Assembly: GCA_001447805.1 (NCBI GenBank)
Contig: CP013099.1
Span: forward strand, 186,001-250,000
Length of the DNA stretch: 64,000 nt
Origin: Candidatus Tenderia electrophaga
Lineage (GTDB): Bacteria > Pseudomonadota > Gammaproteobacteria > Tenderiales > Tenderiaceae
Direction of reading: 5' to 3'
Of this stretch, positions 3,174 to 15,404 are shown one piece after another (within the stretch, counting starts at the first letter, position 1; the number at the start of each line of letters is the position of its first letter). The position numbers were made by a program, and so were the translations under genes. The notes beneath the pieces are model-generated. The model made no database searches. It was not told the DNA's origin and worked only from the letters and a program-made list of their open reading frames with translations.

Positions 3174-3188
3174 CGTTAACAGGCCCTA
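3174..3188. repeat. Possible solo end of a TAGGGCCTGTT-type inverted-repeat element
   Basis: On the minus strand the sequence TAGGGCCTGTTAACGCTAA begins in the stop codon (TAG) of the adenosyltransferase gene. It matches the first 11 bases of the terminal inverted repeat of the complete miniature element at 50098-50367, which also begins in a stop codon. No partner end is visible nearby, so this would be a solo or degraded end. The match is short and could be chance. Confidence 0.3.
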
Positions 3189-3749
3189 GTTGTCCTCGGC
3201 CTTGGCGGGTCGCCACAATACCTCGCTGCCGCCGTTTTCGCGTGCCAGCAGGCGGGCCATGACGAACAACAGGTCGGAGAGGCGATTGAGATAGGACAGG
3301 GCCTGCTGGTTGACCGCCTCCTGGCGCAGCAGGCTGGCGACGCGGCGCTCGGCGCGCCGACAGACCGCGCGGGCGATGTGGCAGCTGGCGGCCGCGGCAT
3401 TGCCGCCGGGCAGAATGAATTCCTTGAGCGGCGGCAGTTCGGCGTTGAATTCATCGAGCCATTGTTCCAGCTGTTGGATATGGGCGCTGCGCAGCACGCT
3501 GTATTCATCCCCCGGCATGGACAGCTCGCCGCCCAGGTCAAACAAGCGGTGCTGGATCTGGGTGAGGCAATCGCGTAGGGCGTCTGGGAGGGACTGGGCC
3601 AGGGTGGCGCCGAGATGACTGTTAAGTTCGTCGACGGCGCCCATGGCCTCGATGCGGGCGGAGTCTTTTTCCACCCGCGCGCCGTCGCTCAGTCCCGTCA
3701 TGCCGCTGTCGCCGGTGCGGGTGTATATTTTGGAAAGGCGGTGGCCCAT
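3186..3749 (-). CDS. PduO-type cob(I)alamin adenosyltransferase
   Basis: This 187-aa protein transfers the adenosyl group of ATP to reduced corrinoids, making adenosylcobalamin in the cytoplasm. The N-terminus contains the ATP-binding motif of PduO-type enzymes (YTRTGDSGMTGLSDG), followed by GAVDELNSHLGA and, near residue 130, the RAVCRRAERRV helix that contributes conserved arginine residues. Length is typical for the family. Other cobalamin genes in the window (BtuF-like, BtuB behind a riboswitch, a CobC-like phosphatase) are consistent with salvage. The gene is transcribed away from the HprK-related block. Its stop codon overlaps a possible repeat end. Confidence 0.92.
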   Translation of the reverse strand: MGHRLSKIYTRTGDSGMTGLSDGARVEKDSARIEAMGAVDELNSHLGATLAQSLPDALRDCLTQIQHRLFDLGGELSMPGDEYSVLRSAHIQQLEQWLDEFNAELPPLKEFILPGGNAAAASCHIARAVCRRAERRVASLLRQEAVNQQALSYLNRLSDLLFVMARLLARENGGSEVLWRPAKAEDN

Positions 3750-4065: not shown

Positions 4066-4731
4066 ATGAGTAACGACATGCAGAAGGGTCACAAAGTGTC
4101 GGATGCCCATGACAACAAGCGTGCCGAGCAGCCGGACAATGCCGGGCTGACGCGGCGCAAATTCACCAAGGCGGGCCTGCTCGGCGCGCCCCTGATTATG
4201 ACCCTCAACAGTCGTCCGGTGCTGGGTGCGTACCAGTGTACGGTGTCCGGTATGATGTCGGGCAATCTGTCCAATATCGATCCCAACGTGGATCAGTGTT
4301 TCAGTAAGAGCGAGGGTGTTTGGAGCAGCCAGTCCGTACTCGGCCCGTCCAGCGGCGGAAGCCGCCGCCGCTCGCGCGACAGCGGCACCGCCACCTATCC
4401 CCATCATTACTGGCCCGCGCCGTTCACACCGGAGACCCGGTTTCATGATTATTTCGGCACCGGTGTCTATAACTACGGCGATGCCAGCTTCATCCAAGTG
4501 ATGCGCGCCTCTGCCGAGCTCGACATCAGCGATGATCACAACGCCGGCTTCAAAGCGGCCGGCTCCCTGCTCAACGCCCAATTCTACGGCCAGACCTATT
4601 TCGGCTACGATGCCGACTGGGTCATCAATACCTGGAACGGTTGGACCGGTTCGGTGGCCGATCTGGCCGACTTTTTCAGTGCCCTGAATCACCGTTGGGA
4701 CGCCGAGACCCCCCATCCCAAGCATGGCTAG
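4066..4731 (+). CDS. Twin-arginine signal protein of unknown function, upstream of the HPr-rel-A-like genes
   Basis: This 221-aa protein has a long polar leader and then a Tat motif, LTRRKFTKAGLLGAP (arginines at residues 30-31), with a hydrophobic stretch to about residue 47, so it is predicted to be exported folded. The mature part has two cysteines (YQC and DQCF) in its N-terminal quarter, a basic serine-rich stretch (SGGSRRRSRDSG) and a C-terminal region rich in aromatic residues (HHYWPAPFTPETRFHDYF, NTWNGWTGS). ATG 4066 is preferred over ATG 4057 because AGGAG at 4051-4055 is 10 bases away from it and only 1 from the other. The PqqD-like gene follows after 42 bp on the same strand, which makes this protein a candidate substrate or product of that system. 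No enzyme family was recognised. Confidence 0.75.
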   Translation: MSNDMQKGHKVSDAHDNKRAEQPDNAGLTRRKFTKAGLLGAPLIMTLNSRPVLGAYQCTVSGMMSGNLSNIDPNVDQCFSKSEGVWSSQSVLGPSSGGSRRRSRDSGTATYPHHYWPAPFTPETRFHDYFGTGVYNYGDASFIQVMRASAELDISDDHNAGFKAAGSLLNAQFYGQTYFGYDADWVINTWNGWTGSVADLADFFSALNHRWDAETPHPKHG

Positions 4732-4773
4732 TGCGCAGCTGGGTTGCGCGCCTAGCCTCGATTTTTCCTAAGC

Positions 4774-5058
4774 ATGCCTGAGGGCAAGCGGTGGCGCCTG
4801 GCCCACGGCGTGGATTTGGTGTGGCGCGAATGGGCGTCAGACTCTGTGGGCTACGAGCGTTTTTCCGGCGACCTGCATCGCTTCGATGCGGCGACGGCCG
4901 CGCTGCTACAGTGTCTGAGTCAAACGCCCTTGGATGAGCAGGCGGTTATAGACGCCGTTGCCCGCCGTCTGGCCTTGGACGGCGATTCTCAACTCGGTCT
5001 GTTTATTAGACAATCACTGAGCCAGCTATTGAGCCTGGGCCTAGTGGAGCAGGCGTAG
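4774..5058 (+). CDS. PqqD-family small protein (HPr-rel-A system type)
   Basis: This 94-aa protein has the pattern of PqqD-like peptide chaperones: a start with a W-rich strand (WRLAHGVDLVWREW), a short beta segment ending FDAATAALLQCL, and a helical tail with LxQLLSLGLVE. PqqD domains bind peptide substrates for modifying enzymes. In the HPr-rel-A gene set a member of this family sits next to an HprK-related kinase, exactly as here, with 18 bp before the kinase start. No strong ribosome binding site precedes ATG 4774, so it may depend on readthrough from the Tat gene. The substrate is unknown; the upstream Tat protein or the downstream kinase are the obvious partners. Confidence 0.72.
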   Translation: MPEGKRWRLAHGVDLVWREWASDSVGYERFSGDLHRFDAATAALLQCLSQTPLDEQAVIDAVARRLALDGDSQLGLFIRQSLSQLLSLGLVEQA

Positions 5059-5076
5059 AGATTCCTGATAAGTACC

Positions 5077-5967
5077 GTGAACGATTTTGCCGCACAGCTG
5101 GAACAGACCGGCGTCTACCTCCAGACCGGGCCGTTTTCCATCCATTTGCGCTCAGGCCTGGCCTCGGTGGCCGAGGGTTTGGCGCGACTGTATTTCGAAT
5201 ACCCGCGCAGCGAGCGGTCCGAATTCGCTGATTTCCATCTAAATGTCGATGCGGTGGCCGGCCTGCGTCGTTGGGTTCGGCCCCAGGTGCAGTTCGCGTT
5301 TGACGGGCATATTCCCTTTAAGCCTTTGCCCTTGGTGCAGGCCTTTCCCATGTTCGAGTGGGGCCTGAACTGGTGTGTCGCCAACCACGCCCACGACTAT
5401 CTCATCATTCATGCGGCGGTGGTGGAAAAGGGCGGCAAGGCGGCCATCCTGCCGGCCCCGCCGGGCTCGGGTAAGAGCACGCTTTGCGCCGCCTTAGTGA
5501 ATTGTGGCTGGCGCCTGTTTTCCGACGAATTGGCCATGTTTTCCCTGCAAATGCGTAAACTGGTGCCGCTGCCGCGTCCGGTCAATCTCAAGAACAATTC
5601 CATCGATATCATGCAGGCGTATGCGCCGGATGCGGTGTTCGGGCCGCGCGTTGCAGACACCAACAAGGGGACGGTGTGCCACATGAAGGCGCCCGCCGAC
5701 AGTATAGCCCGCGCCGCCGAAGCCGCGCTGCCGGCCTGGATTATCCTGCCGCGCTACGTGCCGGAGGCCGCGGCCAGCCTGACGCCCCGTGGCAAGGCCC
5801 AGACCTGTATGGACCTGGCCCACAACGCCTTCAACTTCAGCCTGCTGGCAGATGAAGGGTTTCAGGCGCTGACAGAATTATTGGACCAAAGCGACTGTTA
5901 CGACTTCAGCTACAGTCGCCTGGATGATGCCGTGCACATCTTCGATAAGCTGGCGGCCGGGCAATGA
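5077..5967 (+). CDS. HprK-related kinase A
   Basis: This 296-aa protein carries a P-loop of the HPr kinase / PEPCK-like type, LPAPPGSGKSTLCAAL, at about residues 125-140, followed by a conserved FSDEL box (residues ~148-152) that can act as the acidic Walker B-like element. The ~120 residues before the P-loop are unlike HPr kinase and probably form a recognition domain. No canonical HPr protein is encoded nearby, which is the rule for this 'HprK-related A' family, so the phosphoryl acceptor is unknown. The start is a GTG at 5077; no in-frame ATG gives a complete N-terminus. The stop overlaps the next start as ATGA (5964-5967), indicating translational coupling to the nucleotidyltransferase. 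Confidence 0.82.
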   Translation: MNDFAAQLEQTGVYLQTGPFSIHLRSGLASVAEGLARLYFEYPRSERSEFADFHLNVDAVAGLRRWVRPQVQFAFDGHIPFKPLPLVQAFPMFEWGLNWCVANHAHDYLIIHAAVVEKGGKAAILPAPPGSGKSTLCAALVNCGWRLFSDELAMFSLQMRKLVPLPRPVNLKNNSIDIMQAYAPDAVFGPRVADTNKGTVCHMKAPADSIARAAEAALPAWIILPRYVPEAAASLTPRGKAQTCMDLAHNAFNFSLLADEGFQALTELLDQSDCYDFSYSRLDDAVHIFDKLAAGQ

Positions 5968-7088
5968 GGCACGCCGCGCAGCGCCTGACCGAACTGATCC
6001 GGCATCCCGATACGGGTGTCGATGCGAGTCTGGGCGACTGGGATCTGCTCATCCGCCAAGCGCGCCACAGTTCATTGCTGTCGCGTCTGGGCTGGCTGAT
6101 GCAAGGCAGCGGCCGCATGGATGCGCTGCCGCCCCAGGTCGCCATGCATTTGCGCTCGGCGCTGCGGGTGGCGGACAAGCAGGCCCGGGTGGTGCGCTTC
6201 GAGCTGAGTCGCATCGAGACTGCGTTGCGGCCCCTCGACGCCCCGGTGATGGTGCTGAAAGGGGCGGCCTATGTGGGCGCGCAACTGCCGCCCGCCGGGG
6301 GACGCATCTTTTCCGACATCGATATCCTGGTGCCCAAAGCGCATTTGGACGAGGCCGAGCGCTATATGATCCGCGCCGGTTGGATGACCACCCATCATGA
6401 TGAATACGATCAACGCTACTACCGCAACTGGATGCACGAGCTGCCGCCCATGAAACACGGCCGCCGCGGCACCGTGGTGGACATGCACCACACCATCCTG
6501 CCCGAGACCGCGCGCCTGCACCCCGATCCGGAAAAACTGCTGGCGCGGCGCCAGCCCCTGCCCGGTTACCGCCATTTGTATACGCTGTCGAATGTAGACA
6601 TGGTGCTGCACAGCGCCACCCACCTGTTCCATGACGGCGAGTTGGAAAACGGCCTGCGTGACCTGGTGGACCTGGATGCCCTGCTGCGCCATTTCGGTAC
6701 AACCGATGGGTTTTGGGACGAACTGGTGGAGCGCGCCGCCGAGCTGGAGTTGGGCCGGCCGCTGCATTACGCCCTGCGCTACACGGCGAGGTTTCTTCAA
6801 ACACCCGTGCCCGATGTGGCCAGGAAAGGCGCGGCGGCCTTGGGCCGGCCGGCGGCCCCTCAGTCACACCTCATGGACGCCCTGCTGCGCCGCGCCCTGA
6901 TGCCCGATCATGTCAGTTGCGACGACGCCCTGACGCCGCTGGCGCGGTGGCTGCTCTACGTGCGCTCCCATTATCTGCGCATGCCGCTGCACTTGCTTAT
7001 TCCCCATCTGGTGCGCAAGGCTGTGAAAACACGGCAAGGGCCGACGGCACCCCTGCAGGCCCCGGAAGTGGAAGGCGAAAAAGGATGA
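5964..7088 (+). CDS. Nucleotidyltransferase family protein of the HPr-rel-A set
   Basis: This 374-aa protein contains a nucleotidyltransferase-fold core: VMVLKGAAYVGAQLPP at residues ~93-108, then the metal-binding acid pair in FSDIDILVPK (about residues 116-125). This is the pattern of the NTP_transf_5 family. The rest is mostly helical with conserved histidines (DMHHTILPE, HSATHLFHDGELE). The family is usually annotated only as nucleotidyltransferase and the acceptor is not known. The gene overlaps the kinase upstream and the phosphatase downstream, each by ATGA, so the three are almost certainly co-translated. Confidence 0.78.
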   Translation: MRHAAQRLTELIRHPDTGVDASLGDWDLLIRQARHSSLLSRLGWLMQGSGRMDALPPQVAMHLRSALRVADKQARVVRFELSRIETALRPLDAPVMVLKGAAYVGAQLPPAGGRIFSDIDILVPKAHLDEAERYMIRAGWMTTHHDEYDQRYYRNWMHELPPMKHGRRGTVVDMHHTILPETARLHPDPEKLLARRQPLPGYRHLYTLSNVDMVLHSATHLFHDGELENGLRDLVDLDALLRHFGTTDGFWDELVERAAELELGRPLHYALRYTARFLQTPVPDVARKGAAALGRPAAPQSHLMDALLRRALMPDHVSCDDALTPLARWLLYVRSHYLRMPLHLLIPHLVRKAVKTRQGPTAPLQAPEVEGEKG

Positions 7089-7693
7089 AGCCGATGGTGA
7101 CCACGGTGGATCTGATGCGTCACGGCGAACCGGTGGGCGGCAGCAAGTATCGCGGCCAGGTCGACGATCCGCTCAGCGACAAGGGTTGGGCGCAGATGCG
7201 CGCGGCGGTGGCGGACCATTGTCCCTGGCAGGCCGTGGTCAGTTCACCGCTGAGGCGCTGCGCCGCCTTCGCCGCGGAACTGGCACAGCGCCACGCACTG
7301 CCCCTGAGCCTGGAGGAGCGCTTCAAGGAGATCGGCTTCGGCGTTTGGGAAGGGCGCACCAAGGCCGAGATCACAGCCCAGAACCCGGATGCCCTGGAAC
7401 GCTTTTACGCCGACCCGGTGCGCCATCGACCGCCCCGGGCCGAGCCGCTGAGCGAATTCCAACAACGCATTGTCGCCGCCTGGTGGGATTTGTTACAGGC
7501 CCATGCCGGCGGCCAGGTGTTGCTGGTGGCCCATGCCGGCGTCATCCGCATGCTGCTCAGCCATGTGTTGGCGGCGCCGCCCGAGCGTATGTTCCGCATT
7601 CAGGTGCCCAATGCCGCGATCAGCCGCATCCGCGTCGACGGCGAGGGACGCGAGGCGGCCGCCCATTTATTATTCCATGCCGGGTGTCTCTAG
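7085..7693 (+). CDS. Histidine phosphatase family protein (alpha-ribazole phosphatase-like)
   Basis: This 202-aa protein has the catalytic RHG motif in LMRHGEPVGG (residues ~11-20), the SSPLRRC segment, the conserved ERFKEIGFGVWEG and the second histidine in LLVAHAGVIRM near residue 150. These are the hallmarks of the phosphoglycerate-mutase-like superfamily. The closest resemblance is to CobC-type alpha-ribazole-5'-phosphate phosphatases, which act in assembling the lower ligand of cobalamin. ATG 7085 overlaps the stop of the nucleotidyltransferase as ATGA; longer upstream versions lie entirely within that gene. Its position suggests it may act with the HprK-related kinase rather than, or as well as, in cobalamin synthesis. 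The 3' end overlaps the convergent gene by 24 bp. Confidence 0.82.
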   Translation: MKPMVTTVDLMRHGEPVGGSKYRGQVDDPLSDKGWAQMRAAVADHCPWQAVVSSPLRRCAAFAAELAQRHALPLSLEERFKEIGFGVWEGRTKAEITAQNPDALERFYADPVRHRPPRAEPLSEFQQRIVAAWWDLLQAHAGGQVLLVAHAGVIRMLLSHVLAAPPERMFRIQVPNAAISRIRVDGEGREAAAHLLFHAGCL

Positions 7694-8446: not shown

Positions 8447-9409
8447 ATGGGGCGGCTCGGGCTTCACAATCAATTGACACTGGTTTGCGCGCGCGTATGG
8501 CTGTTGGCGGCGCTCTGGGCCGGGCTGCTGGGAACACCATCCGCGCCGGCCCAGGCCGGCGCGGTCACGGTCACCGACGACAGCGGGCGACAGGTCGCGC
8601 TGGCGCAGCCGGCCGGGCGTATCGTCAGCCTGGCGCCGCATCTCACCGAACTGTTGTTTGCCGCCGGCGCCGGGGCGCGGGTGGTGGGCGTGGATCAGCA
8701 CAGCGATTATCCGCCGGCGGCGCGCCACATCACCCATCTGGGCTCCGCGCTGCAGCTGGATCTGGAGCGGCTGCTGGCGCTGCAGCCCGATCTGGTGGTG
8801 ATCTGGCAAAGCGGTGGCGGCGCGGCGATGATCGACAAGCTTCAATCTCTGGGCCTATCTGTATACCGTTCCGATCCGCGCAGTCTGGGGGATATCGCCA
8901 CCAGTCTGGAGCGTCTGGGCCGTCTGGCGGGCACCGAGGCGCAGGCCGCGCGCGCGGCACAGGCCTTTCGCCAGGCCTTGCACGAGCTGCGCCGCCAACA
9001 TGCCGGCAAGCCCCGGCTGCGGGTGTTCTATCAGATCTGGCACCGGCCGCTGATGACGGTCAACGGCGAGCACCTGATCAGCGCCGTCATGGACCTGTGC
9101 GGCGGCGACAATATCTTCGCCGACCTGCCCACTCTGGCGCCCCAGGTCTCCACCGAGGCGGTGCTGGTGGCCGATCCGCAGGTCATCATCGCCAGCGGCA
9201 GGGCGGTGGAGCGCCCCGAGTGGTTGCAGGCCTGGCTGAAGTGGGAGGCCCTAGCGGCCGTTAAACAGGAGAGTCTGTACGTGATTCACCCGGATATCAT
9301 CCAGCGCCACACGCCGAGAATCCTGCAGGGGGCGGAGCAGATGTGCGGCTATCTCGACCAGGTGCGTCGCAAGCTGGATAGCCGCGGGGCGGGGATGCCA
9401 AAGCGCTAA
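8447..9409 (+). CDS. Cobalamin ABC transporter periplasmic binding protein (BtuF-like)
   Basis: This 320-aa protein has an N-terminal signal peptide (VWLLAALWAGLLGTPSAPAQA) and a helical-backbone metal/corrinoid receptor fold. Family motifs are visible: RIVSLAPHLTELLFAAGAG near residue 60, VVGVDQHSDYPPAA, LLALQPDLVVIW and the later VSTEAVLVADPQVIIASG. It would deliver a corrinoid or similar chelate to an inner-membrane BtuCD-type transporter that is not in this window. An AAGGAG ribosome binding site lies upstream of ATG 8447. The BtuB and TonB genes at 12.7-15.3 kb fit a cobalamin role; other metal chelates remain possible. The stop codon TAA abuts the repeat at 9410. Confidence 0.82.
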   Translation: MGRLGLHNQLTLVCARVWLLAALWAGLLGTPSAPAQAGAVTVTDDSGRQVALAQPAGRIVSLAPHLTELLFAAGAGARVVGVDQHSDYPPAARHITHLGSALQLDLERLLALQPDLVVIWQSGGGAAMIDKLQSLGLSVYRSDPRSLGDIATSLERLGRLAGTEAQAARAAQAFRQALHELRRQHAGKPRLRVFYQIWHRPLMTVNGEHLISAVMDLCGGDNIFADLPTLAPQVSTEAVLVADPQVIIASGRAVERPEWLQAWLKWEALAAVKQESLYVIHPDIIQRHTPRILQGAEQMCGYLDQVRRKLDSRGAGMPKR

Positions 9410-12725: not shown

Positions 12726-13454
12726 TCAGCTGCTGGTCAGGCGATAAATGACGGGCAGGGTCAGTTCCAGGCTGTGTCCTTGCAGCCATGCCGCGGCGCC
12801 GCCGACCTGGCCGATGCGCTGTAGCGTCTCCAGCGCTGAATGATCGAGCACGGCATGGCCCGAACTCTGGGCGATGACGACGCGCTCGATGTCGCCGTTG
12901 GCCAGGATATGGATTCCGAGTAGCACCTCCCCTTCCCAGCCCAGTTTTCGCGCCATGGGCGGATAGCTGAAATGACGCGCGATGTCATCGCGCACCCGCG
13001 CCAGCACTTTGGCCTTGGCGGTCTCCCACGACGCCCCCGCCGCTTTGGCGTGTGATTGTGTCGTTTCAGGTTCGGGGGCGGGCTGAGCAGGAGGACGCGC
13101 TGTGGTGGGTTCCGGGCGAACCTTGGACGATTCAGCCGGCGCTTGCGCTGGACGGGGTTCGGCTGCCGCGGCGGCCGTCTGCGTTGCAGGCGCGCTGCGC
13201 GCGCGCGGCGTGGGCGCGATGTCATGCTGCGCTGCAGGTGCCGCCTGCGCCGCTGCATCGATTGGCGGTTCGGCATGGGGTTCCGGCGCATTGAGCCGCA
13301 CCGTGACCACCGGCCCGGTTTGCAGTGCAATATTGGGTGTGCCTTGCCACATGGCGATTAGCACGAGATGCAAGGCAATGGACAAACCCAGCAGGATGCT
13401 GAGCCGGCGTCCCGACCCCGCTTTGAAACCATGGCTTGTCGCCAGCGTCGCCAC
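12726..13454 (-). CDS. tonB: Energy transducer TonB
   Basis: This 242-aa protein has one N-terminal membrane anchor (LSILLGLSIALHLVLIAMW), a long Ala/Pro/Glu-rich periplasmic spacer (residues ~55-145) and a C-terminal TonB domain (SYPPMARKLGWEGEVLLGI, then VIAQSSGHAVLDHSALE). It would couple the proton-motive force of ExbBD to outer-membrane receptors. The gene starts 3 bp after the stop of the BtuB-like receptor gene, so the two form an operon under the cobalamin riboswitch and TonB is probably dedicated to that receptor. No exbB/exbD is in the window. Confidence 0.9.
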   Translation of the reverse strand: MATLATSHGFKAGSGRRLSILLGLSIALHLVLIAMWQGTPNIALQTGPVVTVRLNAPEPHAEPPIDAAAQAAPAAQHDIAPTPRARSAPATQTAAAAAEPRPAQAPAESSKVRPEPTTARPPAQPAPEPETTQSHAKAAGASWETAKAKVLARVRDDIARHFSYPPMARKLGWEGEVLLGIHILANGDIERVVIAQSSGHAVLDHSALETLQRIGQVGGAAAWLQGHSLELTLPVIYRLTSS

Positions 13455-13457
13455 CGC

Positions 13458-15281
13458 TTACAGCGTGTCGTAGCTGACACCGATGAACACCATGCGACCG
13501 CCCGTGCTATAGCTGTCCACCAGTTCATAGCTGTTGTCGCCGACATTCTCGATACTGCCCTTCAGGCGCCAGTGCTTGTTCAGCGCCATTGCCGCGCGCA
13601 CATTGACAATGCCGTAACCCGCCACGTCGGTGGTGTTGGCGGCGTCGTCGTAACGGCTGCTCTGGGCGATCAGACTGACGCCCACTTCAGCGCGGCCGAG
13701 GCTGCGGTCCACATTGAGGCGCAGACTTTTCTCGGCCCGTCGCGGCAGGGTATTACCGGTTTGTGGATTTTGGGCATCCAGCAGCGTTAGCTCGGCGCCG
13801 ATGTGCCAATCCGCCAGTGCGCTATCCACGCCGATTTCGATGCCGTCGATTTCCGCCTGGTCCAGATTGTTCACCGTGCTGGGGCTGACTGTGCCGTCAA
13901 ATACGATCAGGTCCTCGATCTCGGTTTGAAAGACGTTGATATTCCAGCCGCCCCAGTCGTGTTGCCCCGCGAGACCGATCTCGGCGGTGGCGGAGCTTTC
14001 AGGTTTCAGATTGGGATTGCCGGTATAAAAGGCGCTGCCGGGCCAATATAAATCATTGAAGGTGGGCGCCTTGTAGGCGGTGCCGTAGCTGGCGGTCACG
14101 CGCAAGGGTTGGTTGATGTCATAGCCCCAGGCCAGGTTGCCGGTGGTCTCGCTGTCAAAGGCGTCATGATTGTCATGGCGCAGGCTGAGCAGATAATCGT
14201 GCTCGTCCTTTGCCCCTTGGTACTGCACATAGGTGCCGGTGTTGTCGCGTTCGGTGATTGTGAAGGCGGTATTGCTTTCCACTTCGTCGCGTTGAAAATC
14301 GATGCCCAGGGTGAGTGTGTCGCTGCTACTCAGAAACACGTTGTTTTGCCATTGGGCATGGCGCCGCTGGGTGTGAAAACTGGATGCTGGGGTGCCATTG
14401 CTAAAGCTGTCATATTCATCGCGGGTCTGGCCCAGGGTCAGGCTGCTGTACCACAGGGCGTTCACGGGATAGGCCGCGGTGACGGCGGTGACCTGTTGCA
14501 CGAAATCGGCGCTGTTGTCGAAGCTGCTGTCGAATTCGTTTTCGCCCTGGGCGCGCATAATGCGGCCGTCGAGTTCGAGGCCGCTGTCGAAACGGTGTTC
14601 CAGGCCCAGTGAGACGGCGCGGTTGGTATAGCCGTCGTCGTCAGGTTGGTCGACCCCGAACGGGCCGGGCGTGGGGCGGCGCGCGTCGAAGCCGTCGGAT
14701 TCCAAGTTGGAAAGGGTGAAACTGTAACGGCTGTTACCGTGGCTGCCGCGGGTTGCCAGCTTGTCGCGGCGTAGATTATGACTGCCGACGCCGGTTTCAA
14801 ACTGGGTGCGGTAGTCGTCACCGCCCTGACGGGTGAAGATTTGAATGACCCCGCCGATGGCCTCGGAGCCGTAGAGGCTGGAGCGCGGTCCGCGTACGAT
14901 TTCAATACGCTCGATTTGGTTCAGGGGTATGAAATTCAGCGCCGTGGTGCCGTTGGTGGCCGAGCCGAGTCGCAGGCCGTCCACCAGCACCAGCACATGG
15001 TCGGAATTGGTGCCGCGCATGAACAGACTGGTTTGGCTGCCGGGGCCGCCGGCGCGCACCATGTCGATGCCGGCCCGGGCCGCGAGCAGTTCTTCCACGC
15101 TTTGCGCCTGGCTGCGCTCGATGGCGCGGCGGTCGATGACGCTGACCGAGGCCAGGCTCTGGTCGGCGGTTTCCGCCGTGCGTGTGGCCGTGACTAAGAC
15201 AGGGTTGATATCGCTGGCCTGGGCGGCGCCGGCGGCGGTCAATGCGGTGCTGCAGATAAAGCTGATAAGGCGTTGTTGCAT
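13458..15281 (-). CDS. btuB: TonB-dependent outer-membrane cobalamin receptor (BtuB-like)
   Basis: This 607-aa protein has a signal peptide ending AAQAS, a TonB box-like segment (INPVLVTATRTAET), a plug domain (SVEELLAARAGIDMVRAGG, SLFMRGTNSDHVLVLVDG, IERIEIVRGPRSSLYGSEA) and a 22-strand barrel typified by many aromatic-rich strands, ending in the terminal aromatic strand MVFIGVSYDTL. BtuB-type receptors are usually ~600-620 aa. The cobalamin riboswitch directly upstream identifies the substrate class. ATG 15281 is preceded by AAGGA. tonB follows in the same operon. Confidence 0.93.
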   Translation of the reverse strand: MQQRLISFICSTALTAAGAAQASDINPVLVTATRTAETADQSLASVSVIDRRAIERSQAQSVEELLAARAGIDMVRAGGPGSQTSLFMRGTNSDHVLVLVDGLRLGSATNGTTALNFIPLNQIERIEIVRGPRSSLYGSEAIGGVIQIFTRQGGDDYRTQFETGVGSHNLRRDKLATRGSHGNSRYSFTLSNLESDGFDARRPTPGPFGVDQPDDDGYTNRAVSLGLEHRFDSGLELDGRIMRAQGENEFDSSFDNSADFVQQVTAVTAAYPVNALWYSSLTLGQTRDEYDSFSNGTPASSFHTQRRHAQWQNNVFLSSSDTLTLGIDFQRDEVESNTAFTITERDNTGTYVQYQGAKDEHDYLLSLRHDNHDAFDSETTGNLAWGYDINQPLRVTASYGTAYKAPTFNDLYWPGSAFYTGNPNLKPESSATAEIGLAGQHDWGGWNINVFQTEIEDLIVFDGTVSPSTVNNLDQAEIDGIEIGVDSALADWHIGAELTLLDAQNPQTGNTLPRRAEKSLRLNVDRSLGRAEVGVSLIAQSSRYDDAANTTDVAGYGIVNVRAAMALNKHWRLKGSIENVGDNSYELVDSYSTGGRMVFIGVSYDTL

Positions 15282-15404
15282 AGTGATCCTTCCGGTTTTG
15301 CCGCACACACCCGGGCGGCGTCAATGACGAATATTGCGGAAGGACTTGACAAGGAACAGGGGGGGAGACCTGCCTGCCGGTGCCGCCCGCCGCAACACAC
15401 TGCA

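Follow-up and report, generated by a model that had tools for sequence, protein, structure and literature searches.

What does the kinase of the HPr-rel-A gene set act on? HprK-related kinase A is widespread, being carried (over its family cut-off) by 41 of 369 gammaproteobacterial genomes and by 28 of 118 genomes in a separate phylum sample, and we found no published substrate for it. We addressed this question in a 64,000-nt stretch of the genome of “Candidatus Tenderia electrophaga” (contig CP013099.1, positions 186,001 to 250,000), hereafter the window, where an open reading frame (ORF) check placed five ORFs in a plus-strand run at 4066 to 7693. The first encodes a protein with a twin-arginine translocation (Tat) signal, and it is followed by genes for a PqqD-like protein, an HprK-related kinase, a nucleotidyltransferase (NTase), and a histidine phosphatase (Table 1). 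We propose, with a probability of roughly 0.7, that the first four genes form a module for Tat-coupled phospho-modification, in which the PqqD-like protein acts as a precursor-peptide recognition element (RRE) and the leader of the Tat protein doubles as its export signal.

An earlier examination made without database searches (the sequence-only reading) had assigned the middle three genes to the HPr-rel-A set. This identity held, since both the kinase (394.9 bits for TIGR04352, cut-off 200) and the PqqD-like protein (44.6 bits for TIGR04353, cut-off 35) exceeded their NCBIfam cut-offs, with a Pfam PF14907 NTase (214.6 bits, cut-off 31.2) adjoining them. The histidine phosphatase, listed there as part of the run, has to be left out of the module, as it was present in 5 of 46 loci, which are all close relatives; three of the five have it between cobT and cobS.

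Constant association of the Tat gene with the kinase

The loci compared were the DNA around all 41 kinases scoring over the HprK_rel_A cut-off in the 369 gammaproteobacterial genomes, together with five further contigs (46 in total). For the main counts loci were picked by their kinase, and cargo types (see below) were assigned partly by eye. The sampled genomes are related, so that the P values given here overstate independence. A Tat-signal gene headed 40 of the 41 kinase-selected loci (45 of the 46 overall); the lone exception (L095) is cut by the end of its contig, with 265 nt between the contig start and the RRE gene downstream. The usual order was Tat gene, RRE, kinase, and NTase, with six loci in which a divergent NTase lay upstream of the Tat gene, and an adjoining NTase was found in 45 of the 46.

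The association also appeared from the opposite direction. A search with the single Tat sequence of the window retrieved relatives in 26 genomes, 25 of which carry a true HprK_rel_A, versus 41 of the 369 overall (hypergeometric P of about 6e-27), and in all 25 the Tat relative lay ca. 1 kb from the kinase. In the phylum sample, which shares few genomes with the first, a Tat-type gene was located upstream in 23 of the 26 newly fetched loci; two more genomes (G426 and G438) have it on a different contig, and no Tat-type gene was seen in G385. The adjacency of the Tat gene and the kinase is therefore far beyond chance, and the question posed by the sequence-only reading, whether the two co-occur and adjoin in other genomes, can be answered affirmatively in both samples.

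Leader, recognition element, and cargo

The Tat protein of the window consists of the leader LTRRKFTKAGLLGAPLIMTLNSRPVLG, the segment C58-T-V-S61-G-M-M-S65-G-N67-L-S69, and a helical C-terminal domain. As read from the sequence, the leader has the features of a Tat substrate: the twin arginines lie in LTRRKFTKAG, followed by a hydrophobic stretch and then by small residues in the cleavage region RPVLG. The TatC of the same genome is intact (230 bits). The TIGR01409 profile did not match the protein. Searches with the Tat proteins matched no Pfam or NCBIfam family, and a PDB sequence search for the family gave only chance-level matches. The predicted model, with a predicted local distance difference test (pLDDT) score of 68.6 overall and 80 to 96 across much of residues 120 to 210, matched no PDB fold (best E value, 1.5). 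The counterpart at L031 is 73% identical across the window protein. The C-terminal ‘TPGYWKNH’ and helical domain is also present in large secreted proteins. Two large secreted-looking proteins (L110:70-1908 and L197:3-1265), one of them repeat-rich and adhesin-like, end in this domain, for which no Pfam model gave a match in L110.

Tat signals normally show no sequence conservation in their hydrophobic parts. Here, the leaders of all cargo types share an RR followed by P-x-[ILV]-x-[TS]-L within the hydrophobic part, and nothing resembling this motif was found in about seven other Tat signals of the window's genome. Three cargo types could be distinguished. Type I, that of the window, is found in Gammaproteobacteria and has a mature N terminus of the form C-x-x-S-x-x-x-S-x-N-x-S, in which C58 and S65 are invariant and S61, N67, and S69 are each conserved in ≥90% of 35 sequences. 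Type II, found across much of the phylum outside Gammaproteobacteria and in some members of that class, combines the leader RRxLLKGLAAGVPAIVTLQSGAALA with a cargo of 130 to 230 aa; all 17 members from the phylum set end near C-[WL]-x-S-[FL] by visual reading, while a narrower scripted pattern counted 10. Type III comprises short peptides (ca. 56 to 130 aa), with as many as three in tandem, encoded next to HprK-like kinases whose scores do not reach the HprK_rel_A cut-off.

The leaders of these short peptides offer a clue to recognition. All 24 carry [Y/F]xxPx[LVIMA] inside the hydrophobic region of the Tat signal, nearly always nine residues past the first Arg, and 22 of them have GS at one fixed place shortly past the expected cleavage site. 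A YxxPx[LVI]-type leader motif is the one bound by the RREs of lasso peptides and of linear polyphosphorylated peptides (LPPs) (PMC13381572). The window leader aligns with those of the short peptides without gaps, with LGAPLI (i.e., LxxPxI) at the position of this motif, yet its profile match is weak (E value, 0.02). A profile built solely from 11 of the short peptides gave 36 matches in the 369 genomes, 34 of them bearing RR and two lacking it (G272 and G014). Among the RR-bearing matches, 22 adjoin an HprK-like kinase and one, at a contig end, lies beside an RRE and an NTase; a further eight lie at other places in genomes having such a kinase, and G048 accounts for the remaining three. Ten of these 22 kinase neighbors belong to HPr-rel-A loci, where they are the type I or II Tat genes, so that short peptides and large Tat proteins find each other through the leader alone. 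Divergent HprK-like kinases were present in 10 of the 12 genomes with short peptides versus 23 of the 369 overall (P of 6e-12). In several stretches (L165, L168, L263, and L267 to L271) short Tat-leader peptides had no kinase within the fetched DNA, although these genomes mostly have one elsewhere, and one kinase may serve dispersed substrates.

The PqqD-like protein of the window is predicted to fold as an RRE. Its AlphaFold model (pLDDT, 88.8) had as best PDB folds the RREs TbiB1 in complex with its leader (E value, 2.6e-4), the ThcOx RRE, PqqD, and TfuB1, and a profile-sequence search concurred (TbiB1; E value, 2e-4). LppB uses Asp70 to hold the leader Tyr and Asn33 to hold the kink at the Pro (PMC13381572). 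The equivalent of Asp70 is Asp in 15 of 16 aligned RREs from divergent-kinase (Tyr-type) loci versus 2 of ca. 60 HPr-rel-A RREs (Fisher P of 5e-13, with relatedness ignored). Leader and RRE thus change together, the leader Tyr being likewise missing from the HPr-rel-A loci. RRE and kinase are also physically joined in three loci (L216, L220, and L222), where the RRE is fused to the N terminus of the kinase (PqqD score of 44.4 bits in L220, cut-off 23.4).

The catalytic motifs of both enzymes are, by sequence, intact. The window kinase retains the HprK-type His112, the Walker A motif G130-x-G-K133-S-T, and Asp150, with Glu151 replacing the second Asp (D150-E151), and the NTase retains the three residues given in Table 1. 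The third HprK-like P-loop kinase of the window's genome (L213:7579-8607, in G000:C1 at ~143 kb) belongs to a glycosyltransferase locus with no PqqD, NTase, or Tat leader detected near it. Another HprK-like kinase (L225:4367-6775, 802 aa) is fused to apparent glycosyltransferase domains and adjoins RRE and NTase genes.

The Tat gene is separated from the PqqD-like gene by 42 nt and the latter from the kinase gene by 18 nt; two 4-nt ATGA overlaps follow. Two in-frame ATGs are available for the Tat gene, and 4066 is favored because AGGAG lies ca. 10 nt upstream. A possible terminator in the gap between the Tat gene and the PqqD-like gene was seen in the window, L065, and a few others, and it was discarded as a general, conserved feature. 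The best NCBIfam match of the phosphatase was TIGR03162, the alpha-ribazole phosphatase CobC (161.1 bits, just below the cut-off of 162.9).

Table 1. Features of the plus-strand run in the window (positions as window coordinates)
Feature	Position	Strand	Basis or remark
Tat-signal protein, 221 aa, type I, proposed substrate	4066..4731	+	First gene; no Pfam/NCBIfam family
Tat leader, from twin arginine to small-residue end, RRKFTKAGLLGAPLIMTLNSRPVLG	4153..4227	+	Sequence reading; gap-free match to short-peptide leaders
Mature N-terminal motif CTVSGMMSGNLS (C58, S61, S65, N67, S69), candidate phosphorylation sites	4237..4272	+	Conservation; putative site
Possible hairpin/terminator between Tat gene and the rest	4738..4756	+	z -3.4
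PqqD-like RRE (peptide chaperone), TIGR04353	4774..5058	+	NCBIfam match, AlphaFold model, fold search
HprK-related kinase A, TIGR04352	5077..5967	+	NCBIfam match, catalytic motifs
NTP_transf_5 nucleotidyltransferase, PF14907	5964..7088	+	Pfam match; conserved D118, D120, D173
CobC-like histidine phosphatase, PF00300	7085..7693	+	Neighbor, outside module

Proposed mechanism and its alternatives

In the mechanism that we propose, the RRE would act in the cytoplasm, binding the Tat protein by its N-terminal leader and passing it to the kinase, which would phosphorylate, perhaps repeatedly, a conserved Ser in the mature portion. For the window this would mean S61, S65, or S69 of CTVSGMMSGNLS; for type II cargo it is probably the Ser in the C-x-x-S motif at the C terminus. 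The NTase would then add a nucleotidyl or sugar group onto the phosphoserine, by analogy with PsmK and PsmN, where a Ser is phosphorylated and then hexosylated (PMC9266682). LppK likewise acts on a core presented by an RRE, phosphorylating its Ser3 (PMC13381572). Tat would export the modified folded product and an ordinary signal peptidase would cut the leader off, so that the leader would be both RRE-recognition element and export signal. We infer the role of the Tat protein as substrate, the modified residue, the order of the steps, and the group added by the NTase. The Tat protein had been singled out as the candidate substrate by the sequence-only reading; its candidacy is now strengthened by the leader motif of the short peptides, the Tyr/Asp co-variation, the RRE-kinase fusions, and the LPP precedent. 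The exosortase-A gene neighborhood in several genomes suggests that the exported product acts at the cell surface or matrix.

Several observations weigh against this mechanism. None of 48 scored type I and II leaders has Tyr or Trp, and with HPr-rel-A leaders devoid of the Tyr and their RREs devoid of the Asp, binding must differ from that in the solved complexes. The candidate serine sits at different positions across the three cargo types, and some short peptides are distant from any kinase. No RRE was detected in L032, L104, L173, and L175 to L177 despite the presence of kinase, NTase, and Tat protein. Finally, LppN was inactive in the published heterologous LPP system (PMC13381572).

The alternative that survives best, which we nevertheless consider unlikely, is that the Tat protein is a partner instead of a substrate, namely a co-regulated surface or matrix protein, with the kinase and NTase working on exopolysaccharide precursors or some small molecule. 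Several loci lie among exosortase-A/PEP-CTERM exopolysaccharide genes, the module having other neighbors outside the window's family. In L310 (7662-8618), HprK_rel_A stands inside such an operon among XrtA glycosyltransferase and FemAB genes, with no adjoining Tat or RRE gene and the Tat gene on another contig, and the C-terminal domain of the Tat protein recurs in large secreted proteins, as noted above. However, there is no obvious use for an RRE in small-molecule chemistry, and the conservation of the leader in its hydrophobic region, the Tyr/Asp co-variation, and the tandem short precursor-like peptides favor a peptide substrate. At L309 (1364-5254), HprK_rel_A is followed by an NTase and an XrtA amidotransferase, the Tat gene again being on another contig.

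We give very little credence to a lasso-peptide cluster of the paeninodin or pseudomycoidin kind with an unusual precursor. Although an RRE, an HprK-like kinase, and an NTase are common to lasso clusters (PMC9266682) and the divergent RREs match lasso PqqD models, neither a macrolactam cyclase nor a B2 leader peptidase was found among the scanned neighbors in the window, and a 221-aa Tat-signal protein is no lasso precursor.

It is equally improbable that the run belongs to cobalamin metabolism, despite surroundings that point that way. Besides the CobC-like phosphatase, the genes around the run encode a PduO-type adenosyltransferase, a BtuF-like protein, TonB, and a TonB-dependent receptor (3186-3749, 8447-9409, and 12726-15308), and in same-family relatives (L066, L073, and L086) the phosphatase homolog accompanies cobU, cobT, and cobS, placed between the last two. 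None of these three genes was found in the window by tblastn, and the different module neighbors in unrelated families refute cobalamin metabolism as a general explanation. Cobalamin genes (cobS/cobT/cobU-like) also adjoin two loci (L163:6713-11403 and L167:4380-5108) that pair a divergent HprK-like kinase with short Tat peptides, a resemblance to the Tenderia family. That the window kinase, through its homology to HprK, is the HPr kinase acting on HPr of the phosphotransferase system is hardly credible, since the same genome has a separate HprK in an rpoN-ptsN-hprK-rapZ-like cluster (L214) and the window kinase reaches 395 bits with the HprK_rel_A model but only 10.4 bits with that for HPr(Ser) kinase (TIGR00679, cut-off 240).

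Comparison with known systems

The sequence-only reading had presented the run as the best candidate for an undescribed system, which stands in part. We found no account of the Tat-exported substrate, its leader motif, or its presence in Proteobacteria; no paper naming HPr-rel-A or HprK-related kinase; and none bringing together three or more of HprK, Tat signal, nucleotidyltransferase, PqqD, Tenderia, and exosortase. On the other hand, the enzymes have curated family names and a close parallel from Bacillota is published (PMC13381572). The HPr-rel-A system (TIGR04352 and TIGR04353) covers the window kinase and PqqD-like protein, followed by NTP_transf_5, but its family models name enzymes only, and no model for the Tat protein was found. 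The resemblance to the SynChlorMet cassette is limited to weak matches, far under curated cut-offs, of the kinase to ScmC and of divergent RREs to ScmD. In the paeninodin and pseudomycoidin pathways (PadeK, ThcoK, PsmK, and PsmN; PMC9266682), an HprK-like kinase also phosphorylates a precursor Ser and an NTase homolog adds hexose to the phosphoserine, while here there is a Tat signal and neither threading nor a cyclase or B2 peptidase.

The closest parallel is the LPP system (lppA-K-B-S-D-N of Paenibacillus alginolyticus), reported as restricted to Bacillota (PMC13381572). Both have a discrete RRE, an HprK-like kinase, and an NTP transferase (PF14907 in the window), precursors with a conserved N terminus and a variable C terminus, the YxxPx[VL] leader motif (here in the short peptides), a Ser near the mature N terminus (Ser3 shown in LPPs; the GS here a presumed equivalent), and loci among surface-polysaccharide genes (PMC13381572). 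They differ in that LPP loci have a SipW-like peptidase and an MsbA-like transporter, neither of which was found among the window ORFs scanned at 2.3 to 15.3 kb, and which would be dispensable here because the leader is a Tat signal. Furthermore, the present cargo can be a protein of 150 to 250 aa, and HPr-rel-A leaders, that of the window included, lack the Tyr of YxxPx[V/L]. The module probably works like LPP, but we do not call it so because type I and II leaders fail the Tyr part of the RRE motif.

We consider it about an even chance that these loci represent a proteobacterial class, undescribed until now, of products that are made ribosomally and modified with phosphate, ranging from short peptides to whole folded proteins, in which the Tat signal is the leader read by the RRE and the RRE gates Tat until kinase and NTase have acted. 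TorD/DmsD-type chaperones are cytoplasmic proteins that bind Tat signals and keep hold of them until the cargo has matured. The RRE would likewise hold the Tat signal, a likeness of idea only, as its fold is unrelated and it is linked here to a kinase. If true, the RRE/HprK-kinase/NTase chemistry of Bacillota peptides reaches Tat-exported proteins of Proteobacteria, and leader-guided peptide modification would be joined to Tat quality control, two fields with little prior contact. With a substrate family and its leader motif named, the function becomes directly testable.

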